From positions 1,984,001-2,048,000 of the forward strand of contig NZ_CP033969.1 of the NCBI RefSeq assembly GCF_003854935.1: a DNA stretch of 64,000 nucleotides. The letters are read 5' to 3'. Every line of letters starts with the position of its first letter. Positions within the stretch are counted from its first letter, which is position 1. The notes under the pieces are model-generated. The model was not told the origin of the DNA and searched no databases. It saw only the letters and a program-made list of their open reading frames with translations. The DNA comes from Cupriavidus pauculus (GTDB lineage Bacteria > Pseudomonadota > Gammaproteobacteria > Burkholderiales > Burkholderiaceae). Positions 19,373 through 30,498 of the stretch are shown piece by piece. Both the position numbers and the translations under genes were made by a program.

Positions 19373-22112
<2,740 letters not shown>

Positions 22113-22127
22113 TTCAGTCCCCGGTTT

Positions 22128-22160
22128 GCTCCGCTCTCCCCCACGGCGGGAGAGCGGAGC
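22128..22160. repeat. REP-like hairpin after livF
   Basis: A 13-bp perfect stem GCTCCGCTCTCCC / GGGAGAGCGGAGC with a 7-nt loop and no T-run. The CTCTCCC...GGGAGAG core recurs at 42079-42104, suggesting one dispersed palindrome family. It may also stop or stabilise the liv mRNA. Confidence 0.6.
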
Positions 22161-22461
22161 CGCCTCCGGCCACCGGCCACCCCGGCCGCCCCGGCCCCTT
22201 CCCGCCCCCTTCGCCATCCACGAAATCCCCCTTTCGCCAATGACCGTCGCCCCGGCGGGCCGGGCGGTCCGCTGGCGGCGGGCAGCGGTGGCATAATCGC
22301 TTGCGATGTCAAGCAATCCCCGGCGTCGCCGGAAACGCAGCAGAATGGCTCCTGCCTGCCCGCGATGGCATCCGGAATAACAACTCCCCTGCAAACCAAC
22401 GCGCGGATTCGCGCCGGTCGTCCCCTCCGGGGGTGCGGTCGGACGGTCTGCCCCCCGCATC
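22161..22461 (+). promoter_or_regulatory. leuC upstream region with -10 box and a doubtful mini-ORF
   Basis: CATAAT (22292-22297) is a good -10 with no clear -35. Eight bases later an ATG (22306) opens a 24-codon frame to TAA at 22378-22380 that has an Arg/Lys-rich run (PRRRRKRSR) and no Leu codon, so it is not a leucine attenuator. The remaining sequence to leuC (22462) shows no intrinsic terminator. Confidence 0.35.
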
Positions 22462-23871
22462 ATGGCAAAGACGCTCTACGACAAACTCTGGGATGACCAC
22501 ACCGTCCACGTCGAGGAAGACGGCACCACGCTGCTCTACATCGACCGCCACCTGCTGCATGAAGTGACCAGCCCGCAGGCGTTCGAGGGCCTGAAGCTGG
22601 CGGAGCGTCCGGTGTGGCGCATCAGCGCGAACCTGGCCGTGTCGGACCACAACGTGCCGACCACGGACCGCACGCAAGGCATCGCCGACCCGATCTCGAA
22701 GCTCCAGGTCGATACGCTGGACGCCAACTGCGACGCCTACGGCATCACGCAGTTCAAGATGAACGACCACCGCCAGGGCATCGTCCACGTGATCGGGCCG
22801 GAGCAGGGCGCCACGCTGCCCGGCATGACCGTGGTCTGCGGCGACTCGCACACCAGCACGCACGGCGCGTTCGGCGCGCTGGCCCACGGCATCGGCACGT
22901 CCGAGGTGGAGCACGTGCTGGCCACCCAGACGCTGCTGGGCAAGAAGGCCAAGAACATGCTGATCCGCGTGGAAGGCAAGCTGCCGCGCGGCTGCACCGC
23001 CAAGGACATCGTGCTGGCCATCATCGGCAAGATCGGCACGGCCGGCGGCACGGGCTACACGATGGAATTCGCCGGCTCGGCCATCCGCGAGCTGTCGATG
23101 GAAGGCCGCATGACGGTCTGCAACATGGCCATCGAGGCCGGTGCGCGCGCCGGCCTGGTGGCCGTGGACGACATCACGCTGGAATACGTGAAGAACCGCC
23201 CGTATGCGCCCCAGGGCGTGGAATGGGACCAGGCCGTGGCCTACTGGCGCACGCTGCATTCCGACGCTGGCGCCCACTTCGACAAGGTCGTGGAGCTGCG
23301 CGGCGAGGAAATCCGCCCGCAGGTCACCTGGGGCACGTCGCCCGAGATGGTGGTCAGCATCGAGGACCGCGTGCCGGACCCCGAGAAGGAAAAGGATTCG
23401 AACAAGCGCAACGCCATGGAGCGCGCGCTGGAGTACATGAACCTGCAGCCGAACACGCCGATGGAGTCCATCCGCATCGACAAGGTGTTCATCGGGTCCT
23501 GCACCAACAGCCGCATCGAGGACATGCGCGCCGCCGCGTGGGTCGTGCAGAAGCTGGGCCGCAAGGTGGCCGGCAACGTGAAGCTGGCGATGGTGGTGCC
23601 GGGTTCGGGCCTGGTCAAGGAACAGGCCGAGCGCGAGGGGCTGGACAAGGTGTTCAAGGCCGCCGGCTTCGAATGGCGCGAGCCGGGCTGCTCGATGTGC
23701 CTGGCGATGAACGCCGACCGGCTGGAGCCGGGCGAGCGCTGCGCGTCCACGTCGAACCGCAACTTCGAAGGCCGCCAGGGCGCCGGTGGCCGTACCCACC
23801 TGGTGAGCCCGGCCATGGCCGCCGCGGCCGCCATCGAGGGGCATTTCGTCGACATCCGCAAGCTCGGCTGA
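22462..23871 (+). CDS. leuC: 3-isopropylmalate dehydratase large subunit LeuC
   Basis: With LeuD isomerises 2- to 3-isopropylmalate in leucine synthesis. 469 aa, aconitase-type. [4Fe-4S] ligands are in [12 protein letters not shown] (Cys near 347) and CSMCLAMN (near 410). [20 protein letters not shown] is a strong LeuC signature. The gene for LeuD follows after a small lipoprotein gene. Confidence 0.97.
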
Positions 23872-23920
23872 CCGCCGGGACGGGTCATCGGGTCAACCAC
23901 GACTTTCGAACAGAGAGAAC

Positions 23921-24052
23921 ATGAAAAAGATCGTGATCACGCTGCTGGCATGCCTGGGCATGCTGCAACTGGCTGGCTGCAACACGATTGCCGGCTTTGG
24001 CAAGGACACGCAGGCTGCCGGGCAGGCCCTTGAGAACGCCGCCCGGAAGTAA
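23921..24052 (+). CDS. Entericidin-like small lipoprotein
   Basis: 43-aa precursor with a lipoprotein signal: [20 protein letters not shown], lipobox LAGC with the lipidated Cys at residue 20. The mature part (about 24 residues) is [19 protein letters not shown]..., which matches the entericidin A/B family (small amphipathic lipoproteins). Ribosome binding site GAGAG upstream. It lies between leuC and leuD, 10 nt before the leuD ATG, so it is expressed with the leucine genes. No antidote partner is visible. Too short to appear in many annotations. Confidence 0.85.
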
Positions 24053-24062
24053 GGACATCACC

Positions 24063-24713
24063 ATGGAAAAGTTCACCGTACACAGCGGCATCGCGGCACC
24101 GCTCGACCGCGAAAACGTCGACACCGACGCCATCATCCCGAAGCAGTTCCTGAAGTCGATCCAGCGCACGGGCTTCGGACCGAACCTGTTCGACGAATGG
24201 CGCTACAAGGACGTCGGCCAGCCTGGCCAGGACAACAGCAAGCGTCCGCTGAACCCGGACTTCGTGCTGAACCAGCCGCGCTACCAGGGTGCGTCGATCC
24301 TGCTGGCGCGCAACAACTTCGGCTGCGGCAGCTCGCGCGAGCACGCGCCGTGGGCGCTCACGCAATACGGCTTCCGCGCCGTGATCGCGCCCAGCTTTGC
24401 CGATATCTTCTTCAACAACTGCTACAAGAACGGGCTGCTGCCGGTGGTGCTGACCGAGCAGCAGGTGGACCACCTGTTCAACGAGACCAACGCGTTCCAG
24501 GGCTACCAGCTCACCATCGACCTGGACCGACAGGTGGTGACCACGCCGGGCGGCACCAGCTACCCGTTCGACATCGCCCCGTTCCGCAAGTACTGCATGC
24601 TGAACGGCTTCGACGATATCGGCCTGACGCTGCGCCACAAGGACAAGATCAAGGCGTTCGAGTCCGAGCGGCTGACCCGCATGCCGTGGCTGGGCAACCG
24701 GCTGGTGGGCTGA
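24063..24713 (+). CDS. leuD: 3-isopropylmalate dehydratase small subunit LeuD
   Basis: 216-aa swivel-domain subunit partnering Leu[18 protein letters not shown] is the substrate-binding Ser/Arg loop, and [18 protein letters not shown] is typical of the C-terminal part. Start at ATG 24063 (MEKFTVHSG), the conserved LeuD N-terminus; the AAGGA of the preceding stop region serves as ribosome binding site. Confidence 0.96.
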
Positions 24714-24738
24714 TCCCGAAAACTAAAGGAAATACGAC

Positions 24739-25806
24739 ATGAAGATTGCAGTCCTGCCGGGCGACGGCATCGGTCCCGAGATCGTTGCCGAAGCCGTCAA
24801 GGTGCTCAACGCGCTGGGCGAGAATTTCGAGATGGAAACCGCCCCGGTGGGCGGCGCCGGCTACGAGGCCGAAGGCCATCCGCTGCCCGAGAACACGCTG
24901 AAGCTGGCCAAGGAGGCCGACGCCATCCTGTTCGGCGCCGTGGGCGACTGGAAGTACGACAGCCTGGAGCGCCCGCTGCGCCCCGAGCAGGCCATCCTGG
25001 GCCTGCGCAAGCACCTGCAGCTGTTTGCCAACTTCCGCCCGGCAATCTGCTATCCGGAACTGACCGGCGCGTCGAGCCTGAAGCCCGAGCTGGTGGCCGG
25101 ACTGGACATCCTGATCGTGCGCGAACTGAACGGCGACATCTACTTCGGCCAGCCGCGCGGCGTGCGCGAGGCGCCGGACGGCCTGTTCCAGGGCGCCCGC
25201 GAAGGCTTCGACACGATGCGCTACAGCGAGCCCGAGATCCGCCGCATCGCCCATGTGGCGTTCCAGGCGGCCGCCAAGCGCGGCAAGAAGCTGTGCAGCG
25301 TGGACAAGGCCAACGTGCTCGAAACCTTCCAGTTCTGGAAGGACATCGTGATCGACGTCAGCAAGGAGTACCCGGACGTCGAGCTGTCGCACATGTACGT
25401 GGACAACGCCGCGATGCAGCTGGTGAAGGCGCCCAAGAGCTTCGACGTGATCGTCACCGGCAACATGTTCGGCGACATCCTGTCGGACGAGGCGGCCATG
25501 CTGACCGGCTCGATCGGCATGCTGCCGTCGGCGTCGCTGGACGCGAACAACAAGGGCCTGTACGAGCCGTCGCACGGCTCGGCGCCGGACATCGCCGGCA
25601 AGGGCGTGGCCAATCCGCTGGCCACGATCCTGTCCGCCGCGATGATGCTGCGCTACTCGCTGAACCGCGCCGAACAGGCCGACCGCATCGAGAACGCCGT
25701 CAAGAAGGTGCTGGCGCAGGGCTACCGCACCGGCGACATCCTGACGCCGGGCTGCAAGCAGGTTGGCACCCGGGAAATGGGCGAGGCGGTGCTGGCGGCG
25801 CTGTAA
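24739..25806 (+). CDS. leuB: 3-isopropylmalate dehydrogenase LeuB
   Basis: Oxidative decarboxylation of 3-isopropylmalate with NAD, the last dedicated step before transamination in leucine synthesis. 355 aa. [11 protein letters not shown] opens the protein; [15 protein letters not shown] and [19 protein letters not shown] hold substrate and metal residues. AAAGGAAA is the ribosome binding site, 25 bp after leuD. Confidence 0.97.
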
Positions 25807-25990
25807 GCACCCGCCGCAGCCGGCGGGGCGGGCGGCACCGGCGCGCGATCGGCATCCGATGCCGGTTGCGCAATGTTTTGCCGTCCGCCGGCTCCCCCGG
25901 CCCCGTCCGGTGCGCCGCAGGGGCCGGAAAGCCACCCCGCAAGCACGAAAACACCCGTCATTTCCCCTGCGGCATCGCCGCAAATTCGTG

Positions 25991-25996
25991 TAGACT
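25991..25996 (+). promoter_or_regulatory. -10-like TAGACT before the asd leader ORF
   Basis: TAGACT ends 8 nt before the ATG at 26005; no convincing -35 is visible. If used, the leader ORF would be read from a nearly leaderless transcript. Confidence 0.35.
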
Positions 25997-26004
25997 CTCC
26001 CGTC

Positions 26005-26133
26005 ATGGCCCGAAACCCCCAGTCCCTCCTGACTGCTTTTGCTGCCCGCACCGCCCCCCGCGGCGCGATTGGCATGGGTTCGACCGGCCTGACCGCAACG
26101 ACGATTAAAACCATTACCAAAACGATCCGCTAG
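26005..26133 (+). CDS. Putative Thr/Ile/Lys leader peptide of asd
   Basis: A 42-codon ORF ending at TAG 26131-26133, 90 bp before asd. Its last 13 residues are TATTIKTITKTIR: six Thr, three Ile and two Lys. These are aspartate-family products made downstream of Asd. Codons there include ATT and AAA, whereas this genome otherwise prefers ATC and AAG. ACGACG (26098-26103) pairs with CGTCGT (26140-26145), and AACGATC (26121-26127) pairs with GATCGTT (26133-26139), with the stop codon starting in the loop. A shorter start at ATG 26074 would give a 19-residue peptide close in size to E. coli ThrL. Neither start has a clear ribosome binding site. Regulatory role is an inference. Confidence 0.55.
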   Translation: MARNPQSLLTAFAARTAPRGAIGMGSTGLTATTIKTITKTIR

Positions 26134-26149
26134 ATCGTTCGTCGTGCCT

Positions 26150-26199
26150 GCCCGTCTTCCCCGCGCAGCCACGCCGGGCGAAGCAAAATGGCGGGGAAG
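26150..26199 (+). promoter_or_regulatory. Mutually exclusive hairpins between leader ORF and asd
   Basis: CTTCCCCGC (26156-26164) can pair with GCGGGGAAG (26191-26199), 9 bp. GCCCG (26150-26154) can pair with CGGGC (26175-26179). The two pairings cross and cannot form together. No T-run follows, so a classic intrinsic terminator is not seen. The asd ribosome binding site GAGG (26214-26217) lies just downstream. Confidence 0.45.
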
Positions 26200-26223
26200 T
26201 TCACATCACATCCGAGGTAAGTC

Positions 26224-27360
26224 ATGATTGTAGGTCTCGTCGGTTGGCGAGGAATGGTCGGCAGCGTCCTGATGCAGCGCATGCAGGAAGAGGGCGATTT
26301 CGACCATATCGAGCCCGTTTTCTTCAGCACGTCCAACGCCGGCGGCAAGGCCCCGGCCATGGCGAAGAATGAAACCACGCTGAAAGACGCGAACGACATC
26401 GACGCACTGAAGCAGTGCGACGTGGTGCTCACCGCCCAGGGCGGCGACTACACGAACGACGTCTTCCCGCGCCTGCGCGCCGCCGGCTGGAACGGCTACT
26501 GGATCGACGCCGCCTCGTCGCTGCGCATGAAGGACGACGCGATCATCGTGCTCGACCCGGTCAATCTGGGCGTGATCAAGGACGCGCTGTCCAAGGGCGT
26601 CAAGAACTTCATCGGCGGCAACTGCACAGTCAGCTGCATGATGATGGGCCTGGGCGGCCTGTTCCAGGCCGACCTGATCGAGTGGATGACCTCGATGACC
26701 TACCAGGCCGCCTCGGGCGGCGGTGCCCAGCACATGCGCGAGCTGCTGACCCAGTTCGGCACGCTGAACGCCGCGGTCAAGCCGCTGCTGGACAACCCGG
26801 CGTCGGCCATCCTGGAGATCGACCGCCAGATCCTGTCGACCCAGCACGGCCTGTCCGCCGACGAGACCAAGCAGTTTGGCGTGCCGCTGGCCGGCAACCT
26901 GATTCCGTGGATCGACAAGGACCTCGGCAACGGCGTGTCCAAGGAAGAGTGGAAGGGCGCCGCCGAGACCAACAAGATCCTGGGCCGGGGAGAGGGCTTT
27001 GTCGGGGCCACCGGCGCCGCGCCGATCGCCGTGGACGGCCTGTGCGTGCGGATCGGCGCCATGCGCTGCCATTCGCAGGCGCTGACGATCAAGCTGCGCC
27101 GCGACGTGCCGCTGGACGAGATCGAAGGCATGCTGGCCGCCAACAACCAGTGGGCCAAGGTCGTGCCGAACACCCGCGAGGCCAGCATGAAGGACCTGAC
27201 GCCGGCCGCCGTGACCGGCACGCTGACGATTCCGGTGGGCCGCCTGCGCAAGATGCAGATGGGCGGCGAGTACCTGTCGGCCTTCACCGTGGGCGACCAG
27301 CTCCTGTGGGGCGCGGCCGAGCCGCTGCGGCGTATGCTGCGCATTCTGATCGAGGACTGA
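26224..27360 (+). CDS. asd: Aspartate-semialdehyde dehydrogenase
   Basis: Reduces aspartyl phosphate to aspartate semialdehyde, the branch point to Lys, Met, Thr and Ile and to diaminopimelate. 378 aa, the Gram-negative type. [15 protein letters not shown] binds NADP; the catalytic Cys is in [13 protein letters not shown] (near residue 133); [14 protein letters not shown] follows. GAGGTAA is the ribosome binding site. Preceded by a Thr/Ile/Lys-rich leader ORF, and followed by fimV-truA-trpF in the order also known from other proteobacteria. Confidence 0.97.
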
Positions 27361-27615
27361 CCCCCTCTTTGGCCTTGCCGCTTCGTTGCAGCAAGGCAAC
27401 AGAATGACCTGCTTTCTCATCGACGCCGCGCCCGGAGCGCGGCGTTGTCGCATCCGGAACCCTTTTTTTCACAGGCTTGGGTCACAATACAGCCGGCATG
27501 CGCTTGGCCACGGGGTCATCGCCGCCGCGCATCTGGCATGCACGGCAGCGACATGGGCGCGCACCAGGACGGGCAACAAGCCCGGCCGGTTCAGCGCCCG
27601 CCAGCCAGCCATTTG
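27361..27615 (+). other. asd-fimV intergenic region
   Basis: A 9-bp hairpin ACGCCGCGC / GCGCGGCGT (27423-27445), with T-rich sequence only about 18 nt later (27463-27469), may weakly end asd transcription. No gene is visible in the rest. Confidence 0.4.
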
Positions 27616-27643
27616 TTGGGATCGGGTTAACTTTTGCTACTAA
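27616..27643 (+). promoter_or_regulatory. Candidate fimV promoter containing a GTTAAC site
   Basis: TTGGGA (27616-27621), 16-bp spacer, TACTAA (27638-27643), 20 bp before the GTG start. GTTAAC (27626-27631) falls in the spacer; this matches GTWWAC, a motif I recall being methylated by orphan enzymes in Burkholderiales. Confidence 0.4.
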
Positions 27644-27663
27644 AACCATAAACGGAGCACGAG

Positions 27664-30498
27664 GTGAGTGTGAGCCTACATCGCCGGAAAGATGCGCCTA
27701 CTGTCCGTCAGCGCTGGTCAACGCTGGCCGTCACGGCATTCGGTCTGCTGCTTGCGCAGCCAGCCGCCTATGCCGCGGGGTTCGGACAATTAAGGGTCCA
27801 ATCCAACCTGGGGCAGCCGCTCCAGGCTGAAATCGATATCACCGGCGTGACGCCCGAGGAAGCCGACAGCCTGGCTGTCAAGCTGGCCCCGGCGTCCGCC
27901 TATTCCCGTGCCGGGCTGACCTATCTGTCGGCCATCTCCAGCGTCCGGCTGGACGTGCAGAAGCGTCCGAACGGCAGCTACGTGGCCACCGTGCGGTCCA
28001 ACCAGCCGCTCAGCGAGCCGTTTGTCGACATCCTCGTCGACATGACGTGGTCCAGCGGCAAGATCACCCGCGCCTATACGTTCCTGCTGGATCCGGCCGG
28101 CGCCAAGCCGTCGAACCAGGCGTTCTCGCCGACCACCGTGGTGCAGGCCGCGACCCCCGATGCGTCGCCCGCCGCCGCGCCGGTACCGGCGCCGGCGCCC
28201 ATGGCCGCCGCGCCCGCCGCACCGTCCGCCGCCCCCACGCCGGCGCCCGCGCGCCAGCCGCGCCGCGCCGCGCCGCCCGCTGCCGTGGGCGATGGCGTGG
28301 CCGCCAACGGCAACTACACGGTCCAGCGCGGCGACACGCTCTATGCCATTGCCGGCGAAGCCGCGCAGGGCCAGGACGCCGTGTCGCTGGAGCAGATGCT
28401 GCTGGCGCTGTATCGGAACAATCCCAACGCCTTCATCGGCGGCAACATCAACCGGATCAAGTCTGGCGCCGTGCTCAAGGTGCCGAGCGCCCAGCAGGCC
28501 CAGTCCGTCAGCCCGCGCGAGGCCCGCCGCGAGGTGGTGGCCCGCACGCAGGGCTTCGACAGCTACCGCAGCCGCCTGGCGGCTGCCGCCGCGGCGAAGT
28601 CCGTGGAAGCCGGGTCGGGCCGCGAGCAGTCGGGCAACGTGACCGCCCGCGTGCAGGACACCACGGTGCCGAACGCCGGCCCGCGCGACGAACTGAAGCT
28701 GTCGAAGGGCGACAAGGCCGACAAGGGCGCGCAGGCCAAGGCCGAAGCCGAGGTGGCGAACCAGCGCAAGCTCAAGGAAGCCGAGTCGCGCGTGACGGAC
28801 CTGGAGAAGAACATCTCCGACATGCAGCGCCTGATGGAGCTGAAGAACGCGGAGATCGCCAAGCTCAACCAGGGCAACCAGGCCGCCAAGGCCGCGGCTG
28901 CGCCGGCCACCGCTGCGGCAGGCACCAAGCCGGCGGACGCCGCCGCGCCCGCGCCGACCGTGGTCCCGGCCGAGCCGGCCAAGGCCGCCGCCCCGAGCAC
29001 GGCCACGCCAGAACCGGCCCCGGCCGCCACGGCCGATGCGTCGGCGGCGACCGCTGCCACCGCTGCGGCCGCAGCCACCGCCGCAGCCGCCTCGGCCCCC
29101 GCTGCCACCACCCCGGCCGCCGCCGCATCCGCGCCGCAGGGCGCCGCTTCGGCCACTGCCGCCGCGCCGGCTTCGGCACCGGCTGCCGCCAGGAAGGCGC
29201 CGCCCGTTGTCCAGCCGATCGCCGAGCCGTCGTTCGCCGACGAACTGCTGGCCAATCCGATGCTGCTGCCCGGCGTCGGTGTGCTGGTTGCGTTGCTTGG
29301 CGGTTATGCGTACTATCGCCGCCGCCAGAAGCAGAAGGCCGGCGAGAACACCGGCTTCGGTGACAGCATCCTGTCCCAGGAAAGCACGGTCATGGCCGGC
29401 GGACACTCGTTGTTCGGTACCGCCGGCGGCCAGAGTGTCGACACGTCGCAGCACAGCGTGTTCGGTGCCGACTTCCGCATCGGCAACAACTCGCCCGAAG
29501 CGACGGAAGTGGATCCGATTGCCGAGGCCGAGGTGTACATCGCGTACGGACGCGACGTGCAGGCAGAGGAAATCCTGCGCGAAGCGTTGCAACAGAATCC
29601 GGAGCGCCAGGCCATCCGCCTGAAGCTGCTGGAGATTTACAACACTCGTCAGGATGTGGAAGGTTTCCGGGTGATTGCAGAAGAAATGTTCGCCCAGGTA
29701 GGCGGACAAAGCGCGGACTGGCAGCAGGTCGCGGAAATGGGTCGCAAGCTGGATCCGGGCAACGCGCTGTACCTGTCGGTGGCGCCCGAGGTGATGGCGG
29801 AAGCCGATACGACCACCCCGGTGGCCGACCAATGGCGTACGCAGGACCCCGCGCAGTCGCTGCAGGCCGCGCCGCAGGCGTCGGCCATGCCGGACCTGGC
29901 GCTGCCGCTCGACGCCTTCCCGGCGCCGGCCCCCGGCGAGCCCATCGTGGCACCGGCGTCGGCATCGATGGTCTTCGGCAACGAGCACGCCGAGCCGGTG
30001 GCCCGCCTGGACGACATCCTCGACGAGGGTCACGACGCCGCCCACGTGCCCGCGCTGGACACCCCCACGCGCTCGCGCCCGCTGGAATTCGACATGTCCG
30101 CCCTGTCGCTCGACCTGAATCCGGCCACGCCGGACGCGGGCGGGCTGCAGCCGGCGCCGCTGGCCACGGCCACGTACGACGCGCCGTCGCTGGCCGAATC
30201 GACCGTGCCGCTGCCGGCCCCGACGATGCTCCAGAACGGCAAGCTGGTCGAGCCGATCGACCTGAGCCGCGTCACGTCCGAAGGGCTGGGCGACGCCACG
30301 CATGGCGTTTCCGCCAGCACGCTGTCCGCCACGGGCATGGACGGCAGCCGCGACATGCAGATCAAGCTGGACCTGGCGCGCGCCTATATCGAGATCGGCG
30401 ACAAGGAAGGGGCGCGCGAACTGCTGCAGGAAGTGGTCGAGCAGTCCGACGACCCGCTGCAGACCGAGGCCCGCACGCTGCTGCGCGACGTGGCCTGA
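27664..30498 (+). CDS. fimV: FimV/HubP-family polar protein
   Basis: 944-aa inner-membrane, peptidoglycan-binding protein of the FimV/HubP family, which organises cell poles and supports type IV pilus or motility functions. Order of parts: signal peptide (about 1-38), FimV N-terminal domain (GFGQLRVQSNLGQPLQAEI onward), LysM (NYTVQRGDTLYAIAG, about 216-275), a coiled coil (about 355-405), a long Ala/Pro-rich stretch, one transmembrane helix (about 530-550), an acidic cytoplasmic region, and a C-terminal TPR-like FimV motif (DMQIKLDLARAYIEIGDKEG, near 896). It starts with GTG. Ended by a strong terminator. Confidence 0.93.
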   Translation: MSVSLHRRKDAPTVRQRWSTLAVTAFGLLLAQPAAYAAGFGQLRVQSNLGQPLQAEIDITGVTPEEADSLAVKLAPASAYSRAGLTYLSAISSVRLDVQKRPNGSYVATVRSNQPLSEPFVDILVDMTWSSGKITRAYTFLLDPAGAKPSNQAFSPTTVVQAATPDASPAAAPVPAPAPMAAAPAAPSAAPTPAPARQPRRAAPPAAVGDGVAANGNYTVQRGDTLYAIAGEAAQGQDAVSLEQMLLALYRNNPNAFIGGNINRIKSGAVLKVPSAQQAQSVSPREARREVVARTQGFDSYRSRLAAAAAAKSVEAGSGREQSGNVTARVQDTTVPNAGPRDELKLSKGDKADKGAQAKAEAEVANQRKLKEAESRVTDLEKNISDMQRLMELKNAEIAKLNQGNQAAKAAAAPATAAAGTKPADAAAPAPTVVPAEPAKAAAPSTATPEPAPAATADASAATAATAAAAATAAAASAPAATTPAAAASAPQGAASATAAAPASAPAAARKAPPVVQPIAEPSFADELLANPMLLPGVGVLVALLGGYAYYRRRQKQKAGENTGFGDSILSQESTVMAGGHSLFGTAGGQSVDTSQHSVFGADFRIGNNSPEATEVDPIAEAEVYIAYGRDVQAEEILREALQQNPERQAIRLKLLEIYNTRQDVEGFRVIAEEMFAQVGGQSADWQQVAEMGRKLDPGNALYLSVAPEVMAEADTTTPVADQWRTQDPAQSLQAAPQASAMPDLALPLDAFPAPAPGEPIVAPASASMVFGNEHAEPVARLDDILDEGHDAAHVPALDTPTRSRPLEFDMSALSLDLNPATPDAGGLQPAPLATATYDAPSLAESTVPLPAPTMLQNGKLVEPIDLSRVTSEGLGDATHGVSASTLSATGMDGSRDMQIKLDLARAYIEIGDKEGARELLQEVVEQSDDPLQTEARTLLRDVA

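Follow-up and report, generated by a model that had tools for sequence, protein, structure and literature searches.

The 64,000-nucleotide stretch of Cupriavidus pauculus DNA analyzed here (the window) carries leuB and asd on the same strand, with a short ORF between them (Table 1). The product of Asd is the common precursor of Lys, Thr, and Ile, and the window Asd is 98% identical to the Asd of two C. pauculus loci. The last residue of the window LeuB, by its NCBIfam match, is residue 355. A preliminary description of this DNA had reported a 42-codon ORF before asd with a tail of Thr, Ile, and Lys (T/I/K). We find the same ORF, with T/I/K at 11 of its last 13 residues and its stop 90 nt 5' of the asd ATG.

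Table 1. Genes, leader ORF, and RNA features of the leuB-asd region, in window positions
Feature	Positions	Strand	Basis or conservation
leuB, upstream gene; product without a T/I/K tail (ends AVLAAL)	24739..25806	+	TIGR00169, 487.9 bits
Promoter-like box TCGTGTAGACT; hexamer TAGACT at 25991-25996, 8 nt before the leader ATG	25986..25996	+	Kept in relatives
Leader peptide ORF, 42 codons plus TAG, probably leaderless	26005..26133	+	Frame and T/I/K tail in 98/98 distinct sequences
Putative sensor codons, C-terminus TATTIKTITKTIR; conserved run at -12 to -2 before the stop	26092..26130	+	82 to 100% T/I/K per position
Helix 1:2, encloses the stop codon; ACGATC 26122-26127 with GATCGT 26133-26138	26122..26138	+	92.6% of cells paired
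Helix 2:3	26135-26141, 26143-26146, 26148-26151 with 26175-26181, 26170-26173, 26165-26168	+	Covarying
Helix 3:4, CUUCCCCGC 26156-26164 with GCGGGGAAG 26191-26199; stem end 24 nt 5' of the asd AUG, without a U-run	26156..26199	+	Kept
asd Shine-Dalgarno (SD) sequence GAGG	26214..26217	+	Sequence
asd, aspartate-semialdehyde dehydrogenase, putative regulated gene (ATG at 26224)	26224..27360	+	TIGR01745, 617.5 bits (cut-off, 402.9)

The promoter-like box upstream of the ORF supports the leader start codon given in the preliminary description. The box or a near variant is found 5' of an in-frame ATG in 97 of 98 distinct sequences from the window's family, with a spacing of 6 to 8 nt in 96 of them and of 19 nt in one; the remaining sequence (L127) has none. 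An SD-like triplet occurs in the spacer between box and ATG in 2 of the 97, and the box with its ATG occurs once in its own 6.18-Mb genome. Based on the spacing of the hexamer, the transcript's 5' end would be no more than about two bases away from the leader AUG, and the leader ORF is probably leaderless. Leaderless mRNAs occur in B. cenocepacia (PMC4603805) and make up 4.67% of primary start sites in C. metallidurans (PMC7563307); the main texts of these two papers contain neither "asd" nor "attenuat."

Two Rfam matches in the interval 22000-30000 scored far below the gathering score and were rejected as chance. A strong GC-rich hairpin is present 3' of asd (27424-27469; stem 27424-27430 with 27438-27444), where a T run begins only at 27463. 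A 43-codon ORF (23921-24052) precedes leuD and encodes what we take to resemble a small entericidin-type lipoprotein.

The Thr/Ile/Lys run in the window's family

In the window's family, 139 loci were flagged. Four were dropped before the counts given here (L136, L171, and L172, which are spurious or decayed, and L148, which is the same place as L111), leaving 135 loci and 98 distinct sequences, of which 40 are left at a 93% identity cut. One locus (L114) has a leader but was missed by the start pattern. Another 64 loci (L017 to L080) were excluded; they have no leader, and the best of them has an upstream ORF with 6 T/I/K among its final 16 residues.

The preliminary description had left open whether the run is conserved in close relatives. 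It is kept in all 16 of them (L001 to L016, of which 15 are titled Cupriavidus and one "Burkholderiaceae bacterium 16"), with no frameshift or loss, and it is conserved together with its frame in the 98 distinct sequences, which come from several genera. Each of the 98 leaders contains Thr, Ile, and Lys among its last 13 residues; Met occurs there in 2/98. The mean number of T/I/K in the last 13 residues is 10.59 in the leader frame and 0.47 and 2.18 in the other two frames. The run is also sharply bounded: each position from -12 to -2 is T/I/K in 82 to 100% of the leaders, position -1 in 7%, and position -13 in 41%. In a chance scan of stops preceded by at least 13 open codons (25,480 ORF ends on both strands of 1.02 Mb from 225 partly overlapping sources), asd leaders were the only ORFs whose last 13 residues include 10 or more T/I/K. 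Amino-acid leader-peptide attenuators of the thr/his/ilv type have a small ORF in which codons for the end products of the controlled pathway are clustered, and both the count in the leaders and the chance scan find this feature here.

The residue order of the run and the N-terminal part of the leader vary across the 98 sequences. The 98 leaders carry 45 different 11-residue runs, which indicates that composition is kept and order is not, and the keeping of composition over order is what sensing of charged tRNA predicts. Comparison across the family therefore establishes, at the level of sequence, the peptide run, its frame, and the priority of composition over order. The claim that AAA and ATT are unusual choices in this leader also held. 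AAA accounts for 98% of the Lys codons in the last 13 residues of the 98 leaders compared with 3% in four window genes, and ATT accounts for 55% of the Ile codons compared with 11%.

An RNA model (R1) built on 45 sequences has matches in 272 of 399 genomes of the family, representing 9 of 25 genera, with a single match per genome except in G159, which has two. In the rows that we compared by eye (e.g., G089, G059, G107, and G079), the element is immediately 5' of asd. One genome of the sample, G082, shares its asd coordinate with Caballeronia sp. M1242 (NZ_CP071130.1). In an order-level sample of 399 genomes and with strict filters, R1 gave 6 matches, all in the window's family; R1 was built from this family alone and is blind to the form found in the sister family. 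In three reduced genomes of 1.1 to 1.2 Mb from one genus (g7; L170 to L172), the leader ORF is broken or the run is lost, as if the regulation were decaying there.

Alternative helices downstream of the run

The hairpin around the leader stop and the two mutually exclusive pairings before the asd ribosome-binding site that had been proposed for this leader are all conserved as pairings, while covariation differs among them. Helix 1:2, a candidate for the protecting helix that overlaps the sensor codons in such attenuators, has no covariation and a mean energy of -4.4 kcal/mol (97 sequences). Alignment A1 (45 sequences) covers 15 pairs of helix 2:3, and 95.0% of the cells are paired, compared with 31 to 69% for slid versions. 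Helix 2:3 has two-sided changes at 4 pairs and in 18 cells, compared with 1.7 and 4.9 in shuffles, although 13 of these 18 cells belong to one CG-to-UA pair and may be one event, and pair types are no more numerous than in shuffles (14 compared with 14.6). Cognate strands of 2:3 (mean, -23.1) outpair swapped strands (-21.3) in 34 of 40 cases, and 0 of 20,000 permutations match this; with a letter-shuffled partner the value is -18.5. Helix 3:4 is paired in 94.0% of cells (slid versions, ≤71.5%), and its covariation rests on two-sided changes in 3 cells. In L127, an AT-rich 1.2-Mb relative from the same genus as the three genomes with decayed or broken leaders, 3:4 is formed by UAUUCUAAG and CUUAGAAUA, which are other letters in the same pairing, and 2:3 is weaker (-10.7).

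The mutually exclusive helices that characterize attenuators of this class are thus found in 2:3 and 3:4, and their mean energies are nearly equal (-22.6 and -21.7 kcal/mol, respectively, in 97 sequences; L127 and L188 fall outside the 3:4 search pattern, and L127 was restored for the helix energies). The geometry is held as well: among the 97 sequences, the 3:4 stem ends 19 to 26 nt before the asd AUG, and the leader stop is 19 to 26 nt from the motif CUUCCCC. We conclude from these sequence comparisons that helices 2:3 and 3:4 and their geometry are conserved features of the leader.

The preliminary description had doubted classic termination on the ground that no T-run is present, and this doubt is upheld: T runs between the 3:4 stem and asd reach a length of 4 in only 2 of 97 sequences and stay below it in the others. 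Nor does any anti-SD segment stand out in the window's family when six leader stretches are paired with the 16 nt that precede the AUG (means, -5.1 to -6.5 kcal/mol). With neither a U-run on 3:4 nor a standout anti-SD segment, the OFF step has no textbook form in this family.

We modeled partial transcripts with a ribosome at different positions, using 96 of the 98 sequences. As long as the transcript lacks region 4, 15.7 pairs of 2:3 are expected with the ribosome 5 codons before the stop and 3.2 with the ribosome at the stop; the values are 13.2 and 11.4 with the ribosome 9 and 12 codons before the stop, respectively, and 6.3 with none. This contrast follows the logic of classic attenuation. 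In equilibrium folding of the full leader with ribosome masks, stalling did not favor 2:3 over 3:4, and accessibility of the asd ribosome-binding site was unchanged, at 0.51 to 0.55 throughout.

The sister family and the LeuB tail

Family f49 belongs to the same order and is, we presume, Comamonadaceae. Our sample consists of 60 loci (59 from 60 genomes, with G976 left out, and G489), and the asd start was located in 57, with L312, L323, and L324 dropped. Counting as a tail any 8 residues close to the ORF end that include 5 or more T/I/K, we found one in 47 of the 57 loci, 69 to 163 nt before asd, and none in 10; some tails are weak (e.g., L321 and L294). In 24 loci, the tail belongs to a stand-alone ORF, which is mostly 6 to 9 nt 3' of a TACAAT-like hexamer (by eye). 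In the other 23, it is a C-terminal extension of LeuB itself (L232, L282 to L285, L288, L291, L294, L298 to L300, L303, L305, L307, L309, L315 to L317, L320, L321, L330, L332, and L338). In four tail-bearing LeuBs that we tested, TIGR00169 covers residues 2 to 350 and the protein continues to residues 362 to 366, while the one tested LeuB of the stand-alone type ends at 356. The added tail is visible in alignment A2.

In both f49 forms, the RNA 3' of the stop is bistable, folding either into a long hairpin of the type CCGGUUCGUC with GACGAGCCGG (mean, -26.7) or locally (-13.7). This holds for 45 of 47 sequences (L285 and L317 are outside the pattern), and the mean energies are weakened by two shortened sequences, L301 and L313. 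In 44 of the 47 sequences, the ribosome test gave the same kind of contrast as in the window's family, with 13.2 pairs when the ribosome is 5 codons before the stop and 3.5 when it is at the stop.

Directly 3' of region 2 in f49 is the segment CGCCC(UU), which is complementary to the asd SD region (AA)GGGCG. Matched variants are found as GCGCC with GGCGC (L297, L301, L313, L318, and L331) and as CCCCU with AGGGG (L281 and L287), and of the stretches that we tried this one pairs best (-10.4 to -11.1 compared with -6.6 to -8.5). When cognate and swapped anti-SD segments were compared, 46 of 10,000 permutations were as good as the cognate arrangement overall, and 230 were as good in the LeuB-tail group; in the stand-alone group taken alone, cognate segments were no better than swapped ones (3,738 of 10,000). 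Some LeuB-tail members have a differing outer stem instead (CCUGGACCCC with GGGGUCCAGG in L285 and CCACAAACCC with GGGUUUGUGG in L288). An SD-complementary segment, which is the feature of a translational attenuator, is thus found in f49 but not in the window's family.

On an f49 tree made from 130 Asd columns, which is weakly resolved (7 of 54 inner branches are well supported), the LeuB-tail label changes 14 times compared with a mean of 18.1 in shuffles, and 16 of 500 shuffles are as low. The well-supported branches force at least 3 changes, which suggests that the attenuation codons moved onto or off LeuB more than once. It is likely that the Thr/Ile/Lys tail of f49 LeuB (e.g., ...DAVVAAITKTITKG) is a leader that has merged with the enzyme and acts as a shortage sensor for asd. 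If this is true, the last codons of an operon enzyme can be the regulatory sensor for the next gene, intra-operon attenuation is directly testable in this system, and odd C-terminal tails of other annotated enzymes may also be regulatory.

Proposed switch, rival readings, and related leaders

Taken together, these comparisons make it very probable that the element is a cis-acting attenuator of asd that senses shortage of Thr, Ile, or Lys. Points that count against it are the equilibrium folding, the lack of covariation in 1:2, the OFF step without a textbook form, the anti-SD comparison within the stand-alone group of f49, and the decayed or broken leaders of g7. We propose that transcription begins at the leader ATG, give or take about two bases, and that translation of the 42-codon leader is leaderless. 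With an ample supply of Thr, Ile, and Lys, a ribosome that has reached the stop codon would cover the start of region 2 and block 2:3, so that 3:4 would form just 5' of the asd ribosome-binding site and asd expression would be low. If charged tRNA for any one of the three runs short, the ribosome would stall in the run and leave region 2 exposed; 2:3 would then form before region 4 is made and prevent 3:4, and asd expression would be high. One sensor for three end products, placed at the branch-point gene asd, would explain joint tuning of Lys, Thr, and Ile in many Burkholderiaceae, and Met would be left out of the sensing. The system would join a leader ORF, probably a leaderless one, to a switch lacking a U-run terminator.

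The readout is slightly more likely to be translational, by occlusion at the ribosome-binding region, than to be termination. This preference is based on the SD-complementary segment in the sister family and on the held spacing to the AUG, and it is weakened by the lack of a standout anti-SD segment in the family of the window. The same sensor could instead control premature transcription termination, either by Rho acting on the C-rich stretch or by 3:4 serving as a terminator without a U-run, and we give this reading somewhat less than an even chance. It is consistent with the pyrimidine-rich region 3' of the leader stop, with a T run of 5 to 7 before asd in 15 of 47 sister-family loci, and with the SD being left free by 3:4 in the window's family; that no anti-SD segment stands out there makes it somewhat more probable. 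However, the absence of any T run longer than 4 after 3:4, the 19- to 26-nt spacing from stem to AUG, and the SD-complementary segment of the sister family argue against termination, as does L127, which is AT-rich and keeps the hairpins but not the C-rich stretch.

Another reading is that the leader is a sequence-specific arrest peptide acting in the ribosome tunnel rather than a sensor of charged tRNA. Known arrest peptides also act at a C-terminus just before the stop, which is where the run is placed, but 45 distinct and permuted runs in 98 leaders and the unconserved residues N-terminal of the run make this very unlikely. Still less probable is a conserved RNA element that is bound by a protein or small molecule and has T/I/K codons as a by-product of its sequence: the stop-proximal RNA is indeed highly conserved, but the T/I/K excess is confined to one frame while the runs differ, and there is no Rfam match above the gathering score in 22000-30000. 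That the ORF encodes a functional small protein and precedes asd incidentally is the least credible reading, since its open frame is kept (37 to 59 codons in 97 sequences) but its sequence outside the run is very different between genera, has no NCBIfam match up to E = 0.1, and ends in a stop at a held distance from the RNA helices.

A leader peptide rich in the relevant amino acids followed by alternative RNA helices is a classic kind of element. The thr operon of E. coli has the Thr/Ile-rich leader peptide thrL, alternative helices, and an aspartate-pathway target, and the leader described here is like it in these three respects; it differs in that asd would be the target, Lys would be sensed as well, translation is probably leaderless, and there is no U-run terminator. 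The Rfam Thr_leader model (RF00506) had no match up to E = 1 in 22000-30000. The asd RNA motif of lactic acid bacteria, an unrelated structured RNA, likewise precedes asd, and the Rfam scan of 22000-30000 gave no such match.

The preliminary description knew of no account of such a leader for asd in beta-proteobacteria. For Burkholderiales, we saw no asd leader among the matches listed in a search of titles and abstract openings, with subscription journals mostly outside its scope; the same search, among the matches listed, gave no LeuB tail as a sensor. The statement needs qualifying for bacteria at large, since a related case has been proposed in Sinorhizobium. The S. meliloti ORF SEP5 is translated, carries six codons for Thr and three for Lys toward its 3' end, and is part of the 5'UTR of a gene named "aspartate dehydrogenase," where it is presented as a possible leader peptide (PMC10117765). 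It resembles our leader as a Thr/Lys-rich ORF upstream of such a gene; it belongs to another bacterial class, and the account given of it describes conservation only in Sinorhizobium and includes neither Ile nor an RNA switch (PMC10117765). S. meliloti trpL, according to the same source (PMC10117765), has a leader ORF at the 5' end of the transcript, as we propose for asd from the hexamer spacing, but trpL senses Trp. A mycobacterial small ORF before cysA2, described as a candidate attenuating peptide, also has its sensor codons clustered at the C-terminus, but these are Cys codons and the hosts are actinobacteria (PMC4633059).

We also sampled 34 other families of the order with one to four loci per family, 40 in all (the asd start is unlocated in 5), and these include one stand-alone run, in L392 of family f14, which ends TTTIITKTVMKG before asd. 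Outside the order, we examined by eye the class of G925 and L260, presumably Alphaproteobacteria, and found small ORFs rich in T/I/K upstream of asd at 5 of the 29 loci whose asd start was located (L260, L341, L346, L353, and L355), ending about 125 to 150 nt before the asd start motif. These ORFs are probably independent of the Burkholderiales form. Six genomes of this set (G925, G1001, G1011, G1042, G1067, and G1086; L341 to L346) have two or three asd-like genes each. In the five besides G925, one asd copy is 67 to 71% identical to the G925 query, and a leader-like ORF is found at 2 of the 6 genes (L341 and L346).
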